Shown one piece after another: positions 5,635-10,893 of a stretch of 27,352 nt of DNA. The translations under genes and the position numbers were made by a program. Position 1 is the first letter of the stretch, and every line of letters begins with the position of its first letter. The DNA lies in the IMG/VR virus record IMGVR_UViG_3300015164_000008, positions 1 through 27,352 of that record; one strand, written 5' to 3'. This DNA is from a virus. Below the pieces are notes generated by a model. That model saw only the letters and a list, made by a program, of their open reading frames with translations, was not told the origin of the DNA and ran no database searches.

Positions 5635-6325
5635 CGGAAGCCCACTGCTCGCCGATCGACCACTGGGCGATGAAGGTCTGCACCTCTCCGGGAAGCGAGG
5701 AGTAGTTCACGACTCCGCCGGCGGGAGTGATCGCGACATCCGCGAGAAGGGACGCGGGCCGCATCGTGTAGAACGCCGCGAGGACCTTGATGGCGTGCAG
5801 GACCCCATCCGGGACGGCGTTCGTGGCGTAGCCACCGTCGCCGACGACAACGACGTCCCCCGGAGCCGAGGTGTAGTAGCCGTTCCCGCCGTAGTTGCCG
5901 GGATACCACGGGCTGTCGAGGTTGCGGTCGAACCACTCGGGATTGGACAGCCACCACGGCCCGCCTCGAAGGGTGTTGTACGGGCGAAGTTGGAGGCCGG
6001 TGTAGACGCCCGTTTGCAGAGCGTCTTGGACGAGGTAGGCCGTCCCCGTTGCGCCGGCTGCCGCGATCGTTAAGGCTGTTCCCGAACGCGAGACGGTGGG
6101 GGTGGGTCGGAAGCCCGGCAGGACCATCGAGGGTCGGTTGAGCGAAGTCACGATGTACGTCGTGTTGGGACGGTCGACGAACCAGCGGCTCGTCGCGTGT
6201 TCGAGCATCGACTGGGCCGCGAGGATGTTCGAGCCGATCGTGCCGTCGGTGTACTGCGCCGTCGAGCCGGCCGGGTTGAGGTTCAGGTAGTCGCGGACCA
6301 TGGCGGCCGAGACGAGAAGCGTCAT
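5627..6325 (-). CDS. Head-tail connector (gp6-like adaptor)
   Basis: A 232-residue protein starting MTLLVSAAMVRDYLNL. Its N-terminal helical part (VRDYLN...ILAAQSMLEHATSRWF) matches the first helices of gp6-like connectors, where residues lead into an ATxRxF-type motif. The C-terminal helices (HAIKVLAAFYTMRP and VQTFIAQWSIGEQW) fit the rest of the adaptor. The middle (about 90-150) is a Gly/Tyr/Trp-rich insertion that is longer than usual. It overlaps the preceding glycosyltransferase gene by 4 bp (ATGA). In the capsid this ring lies under the portal and binds the stopper or gp10-like proteins encoded next. Confidence 0.78.
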   Translation of the reverse strand: MTLLVSAAMVRDYLNLNPAGSTAQYTDGTIGSNILAAQSMLEHATSRWFVDRPNTTYIVTSLNRPSMVLPGFRPTPTVSRSGTALTIAAAGATGTAYLVQDALQTGVYTGLQLRPYNTLRGGPWWLSNPEWFDRNLDSPWYPGNYGGNGYYTSAPGDVVVVGDGGYATNAVPDGVLHAIKVLAAFYTMRPASLLADVAITPAGGVVNYSSLPGEVQTFIAQWSIGEQWASVG

Positions 6326-7608: not shown

Positions 7609-7736
7609 TGACAGACCGCGTAGAGTGACGACGACGGCAGTACTGGCGCCGGTTTTTCATGCCCCGCCAGTGGCCAGTACCCGTTGGCGGGGCGTTCCCG
7701 CGTTCTTGGCAAGGGGCTGATAGGAGGTACTGGCTC
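7609..7736. promoter_or_regulatory. Divergent intergenic region with an inverted repeat
   Basis: This 128-bp gap separates the minus-strand glycosyltransferase start from the plus-strand gene and must hold the plus-unit promoter unless that gene is read from far upstream. A perfect 9-bp inverted repeat (GCCCCGCCA at 7661-7669, TGGCGGGGC at 7685-7693) encloses 15 nt. The motif GTACTGG or its complement occurs three times (around 7640, 7674 and 7728). These could be operator elements. A strong ribosome-binding site (AGGAGG, 7722-7727) precedes the plus-strand ATG. A TTGACA at 7608-7613 has no good -10 at normal spacing. Confidence 0.5.
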
Positions 7737-8498
7737 ATGGCTGCTACGAAGAAGGCCACCGAACTGATCCCGTCGTGGATCAGACGGGTAGTGCCGCAGG
7801 GCTACATGACTGGCACGTTGACCCTGACGGGCACGTCGCCGCTGCTGATGAACTCGGCCGAAGCTGACCGAGACGCCGAGCTCTATCGCGCCTACGTCCT
7901 GCTCGGCCAGAAGACCGGCAAGACCCTCGACGACGACGCGCGACTCCGCAAACTCGAATGGGAGGTCCGCATCTTCTTCGATGCCGACCTCGGCCCCTAC
8001 GTCCCTGGCCGTCAGGTCAAGGGCCTGCTCGTGGATGCCGCTGGCAAGTTCAAGAAGGGTGCCACCGTCAAGCGTTCCCTCATCACGATGCTCTCGCGCA
8101 TCCCGCTCGAATACGACGGGCCGCGAGATCAGGACGCCCTGTGGGACGCCGGCTACCGCTACACGACGATGGTCAAGAACGCGGGTTTCAATGCGGGCCG
8201 CGTCATGCGCTGCCGTCCAATGTTCCCCGATTGGAGCCTCACGGCCGAGATTGCCTTCGACCCGGAGGAGATCGACCCCGATACCCTCGCTGCCATCGTC
8301 GAACGCTCGCAGCGGTACGGCATCGGTGACTACCGACCGTCCAGCGGCGGCGACTTCGGCGCCTTCAATGCATCGCTCGACCTGAGCGGCACCAAGCGAC
8401 GTATTCGTGACCCGCTCGGAGCCAAGAGCCGCAACGGTCATGAGGAAGCCGCCCACGAGGCGTTCAAGTCCCGCATCCTCGTGGACACTGGCGTCTGA
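7737..8498 (+). CDS. RAMP-like protein of unknown function, only plus-strand gene
   Basis: A 253-residue protein; the ATG at 7737 is chosen because AGGAGG lies 9 bases upstream. Visible features are a strand-turn GTLTLTGTSPLLMNS at 26-40, a charged region FDADLGPYVPGRQVKG at 81-96, YDGPRDQDALWDAGYRY at 126-142, RVMRCRPMF at 155-163, and the glycine-rich GIGDYRP (195-201) and GGDFGAF (204-210). The loop pattern G-x-G-x(2)-R-P then G-G-x-F-G resembles the C-terminal Gly-rich loops of RAMP (repeat-associated mysterious protein) RNA-binding folds such as Cas6 and Cas7. Similar uncharacterised proteins occur in other phages as far as I recall. The RAMP relation is inference from motifs. It is followed at once by the GGYNN array. 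Confidence 0.85.
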   Translation: MAATKKATELIPSWIRRVVPQGYMTGTLTLTGTSPLLMNSAEADRDAELYRAYVLLGQKTGKTLDDDARLRKLEWEVRIFFDADLGPYVPGRQVKGLLVDAAGKFKKGATVKRSLITMLSRIPLEYDGPRDQDALWDAGYRYTTMVKNAGFNAGRVMRCRPMFPDWSLTAEIAFDPEEIDPDTLAAIVERSQRYGIGDYRPSSGGDFGAFNASLDLSGTKRRIRDPLGAKSRNGHEEAAHEAFKSRILVDTGV

Positions 8499-8501
8499 TC
8501 C

Positions 8502-8845
8502 GGTAGGGCTGCGCATGGTATGGCTCGGATCGGTCGAGTCTGGAATGGTCAGGCCAGGCGTGGCACGGCAAGGTCCGGTCAGTCTGGCGAGTCTTGGTGA
8601 GGCGGGGTCAGGTGAGGTCGGACGAGGCTGCGTTCGGCTGGGCGCGGCAAGGCGTGGCTGGTCCGGGAAGGCACGGGCTGGGAGCGGCTGGGTAAGGCCC
8701 GGTGGGGCGAGATATGGTGCGGTCAGGCTTGGCTGTGAATGGCACGGCTGGGCCCGGTAACGTCCGGCTCGGTCAGGTGCGGCGCGGTAGGGTAGTGTCG
8801 GGTCGGGCATGGCTCGGTCAGGCACGGCACGGACGGGAGTGGTGG
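8502..8845 (+). repeat. Degenerate pentamer array, consensus GGYNN, 68 units
   Basis: The plus strand from 8502 to 8581 (16 units) and from 8586 to 8845 (52 units) divides into pentamers, separated only by a 4-nt unit at 8582-8585. By hand count, 57 of 68 pentamers begin with GG, and all 11 exceptions still have one of the two Gs. Position 3 is C or T in 60 of 68 and never G. Positions 4 and 5 are free. The array fills the whole gap between the plus-strand gene and the facing glycosyltransferase stop. There is no conserved spacer or longer repeat, so it is not a CRISPR array. Frames are largely open in all directions because of composition, which is not evidence of coding. Confidence 0.93.
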
Positions 8846-8866
8846 TCACACCGCCACTCCCGTTTT
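8833..8866 (+). terminator. Intrinsic terminator closing the plus-strand unit
   Basis: A 13-bp stem (8833-8845 with 8851-8863, one T-G wobble at 8843/8853) has a TCACA loop and is followed by TTTT (8863-8866). The T-tract is only on the plus-strand side, so it ends transcription of the gene and array. The last three array pentamers form the left arm. The loop contains the TGA stop (8848-8846) of the minus-strand glycosyltransferase. Confidence 0.85.
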
Positions 8867-9847
8867 CATGCCCAACAGATCGCGAATCTGCTCGGCCTCG
8901 GCGTCGTAATCAATCCGGTTGAACTCCGCCCGGATGTTCTGACACATCGCCCGGTAACGGGGTTTGTCGGCCCAGATGTCGCGGATCATCGCCGCCGAGT
9001 CTTCGAGGTTACGGTTGGCGAGGTCGATGCAGGTCACGCCGTCCTGCCACAGGTTCTCCGCCATGAGGCCTTCGTAGTGGAGGCGGTGGCCGATCAGCGG
9101 ACGGCCGATCGAGGCCCAGTCATGGACGATATGGCCAAAGCCGTCGCCGTGCTCCTTGTCGTGGTAGCCGAAGGCCGACGACGCCATGAGATCCGCGATC
9201 TCGGCGACCGTCTCGATGTTGCCGTCCGCGCCGTCGATGCCGTGGACGCCGAAGGTGAACTCCGGGAGCAGCGGACGGATGGCCTGATGCAACCGCGAGC
9301 AGGGCATCGAGTCGAAGCAGTTGATAAACGACCGGATCGCCGGAGTCGCCTCGGCGGGATCGCGGTAGCCGAACGTCCGTTGCTCGAACTCCTGGTGGAC
9401 CCGGATACCGCGCGCCCAGATGTCGACCTCGGAGCTGATGAGTGCGAGGGGGTCGAGGTTCCAGTCGATGAACTGGCTCCGATTGCCGACGGCGAGGACG
9501 AACTTCGCGCCGACCTCATCGGCGAACCGCTTGAAGCCGGTCTGGTTGTCCTGCGCCGTGGCGACGACGTACTCCCACGGCATCTCACGGGCTTCGTCGA
9601 GCGTGATCCCGTGGATGGGGCGCTCCGGGTGGTGGGGGTCGTAGGCGATGCCATTGCGGTACGGCCCCGCGTCGAGGAACTGCCGCGCCAGCCGATCGTC
9701 GCCGTACTGCTCGCCGAAGCGCCAGATCCCGCTGTCCCACCAGTCATGCCCGATCGGCGTGTAGACCGTCCCGCCCAGCCGGTCCTCGAAGAGCAGCTGG
9801 AGGCTGTAGAAGAGCCCGTCATGATGGCGGTCAATCAGCGCAATCAC
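8846..9847 (-). CDS. Glycosyltransferase-like protein (GT-B type)
   Basis: A 333-residue protein whose GTG start (9847-9845) overlaps the TGA of the preceding glycosyltransferase (GTGA). An in-frame open stretch continues upstream but has the Arg/Pro composition of a shadow, so I prefer the overlap start. The late segment DGFGHIVHDWASIGRPLIGHR followed by HYEG has the position and shape of the GT-B donor-binding block, but the classical E-x7-E is not preserved exactly. It probably acts with its neighbours on a shared glycan. The stop lies in the loop of the terminator of the facing unit. A nearby family without catalysis is possible. Confidence 0.7.
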   Translation of the reverse strand: MIALIDRHHDGLFYSLQLLFEDRLGGTVYTPIGHDWWDSGIWRFGEQYGDDRLARQFLDAGPYRNGIAYDPHHPERPIHGITLDEAREMPWEYVVATAQDNQTGFKRFADEVGAKFVLAVGNRSQFIDWNLDPLALISSEVDIWARGIRVHQEFEQRTFGYRDPAEATPAIRSFINCFDSMPCSRLHQAIRPLLPEFTFGVHGIDGADGNIETVAEIADLMASSAFGYHDKEHGDGFGHIVHDWASIGRPLIGHRLHYEGLMAENLWQDGVTCIDLANRNLEDSAAMIRDIWADKPRYRAMCQNIRAEFNRIDYDAEAEQIRDLLGMKTGVAV

Positions 9848-10893
9848 GCCGCCACCGCCTCGCGGATCACGGCGGAGCGGATACCCGGATCGCCGAGGAA
9901 GGCCCGCCATTGCGCGGCGATGGTGGCCTTGCCGAAGAGCTCGATGGCGCGCTGGCGGCCGGCTCGCGAGAGGGCATCGGCGTCGTCCTCTTCGCCGAGC
10001 AGGCGTTCGAGGTTGATCCGCGCCTGCTCTGGGCTGTCGGTGGCCCAGCGGGCGATCTCGTGGCCCTCGAAGAGCTCGGGGCCGTAGGGAAACACCGTCA
10101 TCCACTCAGGCCCGATCGAAACCACCGGAACGCCGGTCATCATCGCCTCGATGAGGCCGAGGGTGTAGGAGGCTGGCTGCGTGCCGGTGTACAGGTAGGC
10201 GCGATTCTCGCGGAGGGCCCGCTGCATGGCCGGTAGGGACATCTCGCCGGTTCCACCGATCGCCTCCGAGCCCGGCCCCATCGGGATCGCCCGAAGCCCA
10301 TCGGTGGCCGCCCGCCAGAAGGCGTAGTTCGTGTACGGATCGCGCTGGTAGAGGTGCTGCGTGAAGTTGATGACCGCCGGGACCTCGCCGGTCCAGCCCT
10401 GCCACTCGTCCGGATCCTTCCAGAACCGGATCAGGGCGTCCTCGCCGGCGTAGCCGGGGATGTTCCGCTCCTTCGGCGAGTAGCGGACGATCTGCAGCCC
10501 TTCCCTGCGAAGGGGTGCCATGAGTTCCTCGTTGGCCTGCACCGACTGGCCGACCGTCCGCCAGATGACGCGCTTGTGCTTGAGCCGGTCCCACTGCGGA
10601 GCCAGCCAGGTGTGCTCGTAGTGGTGGACGATGATCGTGTCCGCCCAGTCGATGAGCTCATCGGGGATATGGCGCTTCGCGGCGTCGAGGTTGTCCGACG
10701 TCCCGAGGTTGTCGACGACCGCCCGGAGTTCCGGGTGGTAGGGAACCTCGGGCAGCGCCGCCCGCTTCGGGTCGTGCGGATGAGCGGGGTCGATGTAGCC
10801 GCCGATGCTGAACACGTCGTAGCCGAGCTCCGAGAGGAGCTTCAACTGATCGTGCTCCTCGATCGCGTGCGCGAGCAGCAGGAGGATGTTCAC
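9844..10893 (-). CDS. Glycosyltransferase, GT4-like
   Basis: A 349-residue protein starting MNILLLLAHAIEEHDQ. It has an N-terminal Rossmann-like strand and, at about 236-260, TGTQPASYTLGLIEAMMTGVPVVSI, which corresponds to the GT-B donor site block ending in E-A-M-x-x-G-x-P-V. The equivalent of the first catalytic Glu is replaced by a Gln/Pro stretch, so substrate choice or mechanism may differ. It overlaps the FkbM methyltransferase gene by 4 bp upstream (ATGA) and the next glycosyltransferase downstream (GTGA). It is therefore translated as part of a four-gene block with them. Confidence 0.82.
   Translation of the reverse strand: MNILLLLAHAIEEHDQLKLLSELGYDVFSIGGYIDPAHPHDPKRAALPEVPYHPELRAVVDNLGTSDNLDAAKRHIPDELIDWADTIIVHHYEHTWLAPQWDRLKHKRVIWRTVGQSVQANEELMAPLRREGLQIVRYSPKERNIPGYAGEDALIRFWKDPDEWQGWTGEVPAVINFTQHLYQRDPYTNYAFWRAATDGLRAIPMGPGSEAIGGTGEMSLPAMQRALRENRAYLYTGTQPASYTLGLIEAMMTGVPVVSIGPEWMTVFPYGPELFEGHEIARWATDSPEQARINLERLLGEEDDADALSRAGRQRAIELFGKATIAAQWRAFLGDPGIRSAVIREAVAA

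Follow-up and report, generated by a model that had tools for sequence, protein, structure and literature searches.

Among described systems, the closest is Viral Interference Programmable Repeat (VIPR), the subject of a 2026 preprint (PMC13142463; bioRxiv 2026.04.26.720920). It combines Vipr RAMP proteins with vrRNAs made of 9-16 YNNGG repeats, which recognize double-stranded DNA through their NN dinucleotides, with one base being skipped (PMC13142463). VIPR targets mostly competing phages and satellites, repression and phage defence have been demonstrated, and vrRNAs have been sequenced and co-purified experimentally; an accessory vap gene is 'typically' part of these systems, which makes it typical rather than universal (PMC13142463). 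The type II VIPR of Escherichia phage SUSP1 (KT454805, ALH47069.1, ALH47068.1; PMC13142463) served as our reference. Taken as a whole, the locus analyzed here is very probably a phage-borne VIPR locus that aims at least one guide at a gene of related phages, named GT2.

The window, i.e. the whole stretch of DNA that was analyzed, corresponds to all 27,352 bases of an IMG/VR virus record, the minus-strand head and tail genes of which include those for terminase, portal, major head protein and tape measure. The VIPR cassette lies on the plus strand and is flanked by two genes of a glycosyltransferase-like cassette, both on the minus strand; GT2 and GT1, nearly adjacent in most relatives, are 1.2 kb apart in the window and the VIPR cassette occupies the gap. 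The features of the locus are as follows:

7645-7664, plus strand: CGCCGGTTTTTCATGCCCCG upstream of vipr, from an alignment with the upstream region of the relative L013.
7737-8498, plus strand: vipr gene, encoding the 253-amino acid Vipr RAMP protein (phrog_4652, SUSP1 Vipr homology, predicted Csm3/Cmr4/Cas7 fold).
8502-8842, plus strand: GGYNN vrRNA guide array, in which an irregular stretch at 8582-8595 separates the first 16 units from the following 49.
8716-8770, plus strand: putative 11-unit vrRNA guide, with a 1-nt-skip match to the DGFGHVIHNWA codons of related phages.
8832-8862, plus strand: terminal hairpin followed by TTTT, an intrinsic terminator and possibly the array's only 3' tail (fold z -7.3).
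8846-9856, minus strand: GT2, the member of the targeted family in this phage; the start codon is uncertain and the open frame extends to 10105.
9114-9146, plus strand: self site equivalent to the target, matching 19 of 22 guide bases with three mismatches.

The gene layout agrees with an earlier, sequence-only reading of this DNA in which vipr was the only plus-strand gene. No plus-strand gene follows it, and with the array and opposite-strand genes on its flanks, vipr has no accessory vap gene beside it; because PMC13142463 calls that gene typical and not universal, its absence was not taken as excluding VIPR. The upstream CGCCGGTTTTTCATGCCCCG is identical in the window and in L013 (4865-4885), and may represent a shared promoter, operator or other regulatory element. 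A consensus promoter and terminator scan listed nothing, the terminal hairpin being missed because the scan requires five T, and an Rfam search returned no match.

The vipr product carries a C-terminal extension (approximately residues 216-253) as well as both motifs, GIGDYRP and GGDFGAF, on which the sequence-only reading had based a relation to RAMP proteins. It belongs to phrog_4652 (E 5.6e-37), a family whose function is annotated as unknown, and has no Pfam match. BLASTP aligned it to SUSP1 Vipr (ALH47069.1) with 27% identity over 192 residues (E 2e-17), and a profile built from 42 family members retrieved the PDB entry 36pp, 'SUSP1 Vipr protein', with an E-value of 7.7e-61. The AlphaFold (AF2) model of the protein (mean pLDDT 88.7) matched Csm3 (6ifl) in a Foldseek search (E 1e-6), and its fold scores were Z 11.5 for type VII Cas7, Z 11.2 for Csm3 and Z 10.7 for Cmr4. 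The RRM core and glycine-rich loop of the RAMP fold were found, with G195, R200-P201 and G208 being invariant. Homology to the solved SUSP1 Vipr and the predicted Csm3/Cmr4/Cas7 fold together identify the window protein as a RAMP, bearing out the proposed relation.

The array begins 3 bp past the vipr stop, with its first GG at 8502, just as had been described, and runs in two registers of 16 units (8502-8581) and 49 units (8596-8840) on either side of an irregular stretch that includes one 4-nt unit. The degenerate pentamer array of the sequence-only reading is thus real, its count of 68 being slightly high for a total of approximately 65-67 units. GG opens 55 of the 65 regular units and GGY 49, with nearly random bases at positions 4 and 5. 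The run score of the array was 30 compared to 8 or less in 1000 dinucleotide shuffles, and the second-best period-5 signal in the window was below half its strength. A near-perfect hairpin followed by TTTT closes the array, consistent with the intrinsic terminator proposed earlier, and the array of L013 likewise ends in a strong hairpin (6086-6130). No internal 3' tails were seen in the window array, which has this single terminal hairpin. More than one guide is contained in the array, probably four or five, and vipr and the array would share one transcript from which the RNA would be processed.

To look for targets, the array was read as NN x NN x NN, and IMG/VR was scanned blindly with gapped 8-unit skip-1 patterns. 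The pattern from 8716-8755 matched 15 IMG/VR loci, five of which reach 11 exact units (22/22 bases) in the NN order GC CA TT TG AT AC TG CC AA CC TC. We place the boundaries of the guide at 8716-8770 from the match alone, a span of 11 units that lies within the published range of 9-16 (PMC13142463). Ten of the 15 matched loci are relatives of the window phage, having capsid, portal and glycosyltransferase-cassette genes in common with it, and there the site falls in GT2 homologues. The motif targeted, DGFGHVIHNWA, is the most conserved of GT2, a gene that in the window adjoins the array; each codon is covered by an NN pair at its first two positions, leaving the wobble base, mostly the more variable one, to be skipped. 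The discontiguous guide suggested by the sequence-only reading is thus encoded, with skip-1 matches of up to 22/22, and the 5-nt target spacing that went with it is wrong, the DNA being read with a period of 3 and one base skipped per NN. By analogy with published VIPR, guide 8716-8770 most likely silences the GT2 homologue of competing relatives.

In the window, GT2 has glycosyltransferase and methyltransferase genes as neighbours; searches of Pfam and PDB gave no match for it, nor did a homologue turn up among the isolated phages searched. Environmental phages of this kind commonly carry the GT2 family (motif DGxGHVIHNWA). The motif of the window's own copy is DGFGHIVHDWA, the three mismatches to the guide arising from V-to-I, I-to-V and N-to-D codons. 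The twelve closest GT2 homologues (50-65% identical) carry VI or VL at the swap site and score 20-21, and the I-V combination is absent from the common motifs of relatives. Such mismatches are suggestive, not proof, of selection against self-targeting, scores no higher than 19/22 being fairly frequent among homologues (34 of 81). The same site bears on another reading, which we regard as improbable, namely that the system is VIPR and that guide 8716-8770 tunes the phage's own GT2 in a self-regulation of the neighbouring cassette. The direct adjacency of the array to this gene and the 19 bases still matched at the own site speak for it; a guide of that sort should, however, match its own gene best, and the perfect matches are in other phages, with the twelve relatives closest in GT2 also outscoring the own copy.

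Less probable by some way is a chance meeting of one sub-array with a conserved and abundant motif, the real targets being elsewhere. Several sub-arrays were tried, the matches in related phages are not independent, and the other guides are without a target, all of which would fit a coincidence. Evidence against it comes from an independent set of 78 related-phage loci chosen via GT3, plus L013, which avoids selecting targets by their match; every 11-unit sub-array was scanned against this set with skips of 0, 1, 2 and 3 at a threshold of at least 18/22 bases. Skip 1 yielded 246 matches (homologous sites and not independent events) versus 2, 7 and 5 with skip 0, skip 2 and skip 3, respectively, and all but four of the 246 came from sub-arrays around 8716-8770. 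On the same sequences, the best score was 22 for the true array compared to maxima of 18-20 in 30 unit-shuffled arrays, an excess of gapped matches over shuffled arrays of the kind that a guide role had been expected to produce. The span of the guide, the wobble position of its skipped bases and the kinship of ten of the 15 blind matches argue in the same direction. When the arrays of other VIPR loci were scanned, skip 1 again exceeded skip 0 and skip 2, the 381 skip-1 seeds coming partly from loci fetched with skip-1 patterns and including many copies of the window GT2 site. Skip-3 matches in that scan were rejected as targets, the matched sequences being arrays themselves.

Of the guides, which probably number four or five, one thus has a matching target in IMG/VR and in related phages. 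For the remaining stretches of the array (8502-8581, 8596-8715 and 8771-8840), 8-unit scans of IMG/VR returned 8, 12, 1 and 2 loci with no convincing extension, and whole records of related phages yielded no match at three or fewer mismatches. A weak candidate target for 8771-8830 was noted in an unrelated phage, where the beginning of a capsid-like gene matches at 22/24 bases (L116, 3570-3610).

The association of such arrays with vipr was assessed in 89 loci, comprising 80 IMG/VR relatives, eight isolated phages besides SUSP1, and SUSP1; an alignment search was needed to find the IMG/VR relatives, none being retrieved by a single-sequence search. Vipr relatives were found in phages of Pseudomonas, Gordonia, Mycobacterium, Vibrio (Listonella), Escherichia and Salmonella. 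A period-5 array was present at 84 of the 89 VIPR loci compared to two of 78 control loci, as anticipated if arrays accompany homologues of the gene, and the longest unbroken run in the sample is that of the window. Of the two array-positive controls, one (L132) has a VIPR of its own, a second system that encodes a different Vipr. In several phages, arrays flank vipr on either side while keeping to its strand, which, together with NN content matching targets in the 1-nt-skip register and the sequencing and co-purification of vrRNAs (PMC13142463), makes it hardly credible that the array is a DNA or RNA element for some other purpose (a protein-binding array, a recombination or packaging site) travelling with the gene, even with transcription of the array being an extrapolation here.

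The Viprs of the window, L013 and L014/L015 form a separate clade with full support and a long branch, and have the C-terminal extension in common. It is conceivable, if rather doubtful, that this clade represents a VIPR type of its own, with an extra C-terminal helix, long tail-less arrays, often no accessory gene, guides cut without tail structures, attack on close relatives (superinfection exclusion), and self-protection by conservative amino acid swaps in the own copy of the target gene. No relative of the clade was found in the GTDB genomes scanned. The GT3 gene of the window phage had one GTDB match, in a contig of an actinobacterial Candidatus Nanopelagicales MAG (L209; JAUYKX010000208.1), a faint hint at a host group that is too thin to name the host.

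Other arrays in the sample differ in their organization. That of L132, a relative of the window phage (2108-3644, minus strand; a 190-amino acid Vipr and a 182-amino acid possible accessory ORF), is continuous over approximately 450 nt and interspersed with a 4-nt unit, GGCA, at intervals of about 6-14 units; this recurring unit may mark the boundaries between guides. The arrays of L013, L014 and L132 had no convincing target among the collected loci. In Gordonia and Mycobacterium phages, the vrRNA 3' tails resemble tRNA acceptor and T-arm minihelices (GGGTTCGACTCC, 7-nt T-loop; L004 4540-4840, L005 5105-5480, L006 3780-3970, L007 1640-3150), and ARAGORN calls one of them as a partial tRNA; their predicted folds were no more stable than those of shuffles.

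In the reading that we favor, with GT2 of relatives as the target, Vipr would act as a minimal Cas7-like RAMP coating the RNA made from the downstream GGYNN array, the GGY of each unit being held by the protein and each NN exposed. Consecutive NN would pair with double-stranded DNA, one target base being skipped after each pair, and guide 8716-8770, once bound at the GT2 motif, would shut this gene down in a competing phage, whether co-infecting or resident; three amino acid changes at the site make the phage's own GT2 a weaker match. Homology, fold, array association, the match with its 1-nt-skip geometry and the own-copy mismatches come from the present analysis. Transcription, RNP assembly, DNA binding and repression are what we infer from published VIPR (PMC13142463). 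Coming from an uncultivated phage and a distant clade, the locus independently confirms the reading of NN with one skipped base. It further points to a natural target in concrete terms, namely the most highly conserved motif of a gene that sister phages carry, together with a plausible mechanism of self-protection. It also indicates that decoding is possible in a long array devoid of internal tails, a point relevant to vrRNA production.

Compared to known systems, the RAMPs of class 1 CRISPR (Csm3, Cmr4, Cas7) have the fold predicted for Vipr (Z approximately 10-11.5 over some 115-170 aligned residues), and periodic disruption of pairing is a principle that they have in common with VIPR; DNA is, however, read at 2 of every 3 bases by VIPR and at 5 of 6 by class 1 CRISPR. 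The window differs from class 1 CRISPR-Cas in its pentameric guide, its units being of 5 nt with no 25-40-nt CRISPR repeats, and no cas gene was found among the window genes searched. Among the seven VIPR types are some whose vrRNA arrays are staggered or overlapping (PMC13142463); the continuous array of the window, which could yield overlapping or adjacent guides, may resemble these. The likeness to SUSP1 VIPR extends to a homologous Vipr RAMP, GGY/NN repeats beside the gene, and skip-1 targeting of other mobile elements with the skipped base at the codon wobble. The SUSP1 protein has 195 residues versus the 253 of the window protein, which bears the C-terminal extension; vap1 (phrog_5926) is missing beside the window's vipr; and separate vrRNAs of approximately 100 nt with conserved pseudoknot tails in SUSP1 contrast with one long array without internal tails in the window. 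With a homologous Vipr of RAMP fold, tandem YNNGG repeats beside its gene and an 11-unit guide for which other mobile elements hold 1-nt-skip matches of up to 22/22 bases, the window's system, which the sequence-only reading had put forward as a candidate undescribed one, is VIPR as already described (PMC13142463), a deep-branching member of that known kind whose branch may be a variant of it.
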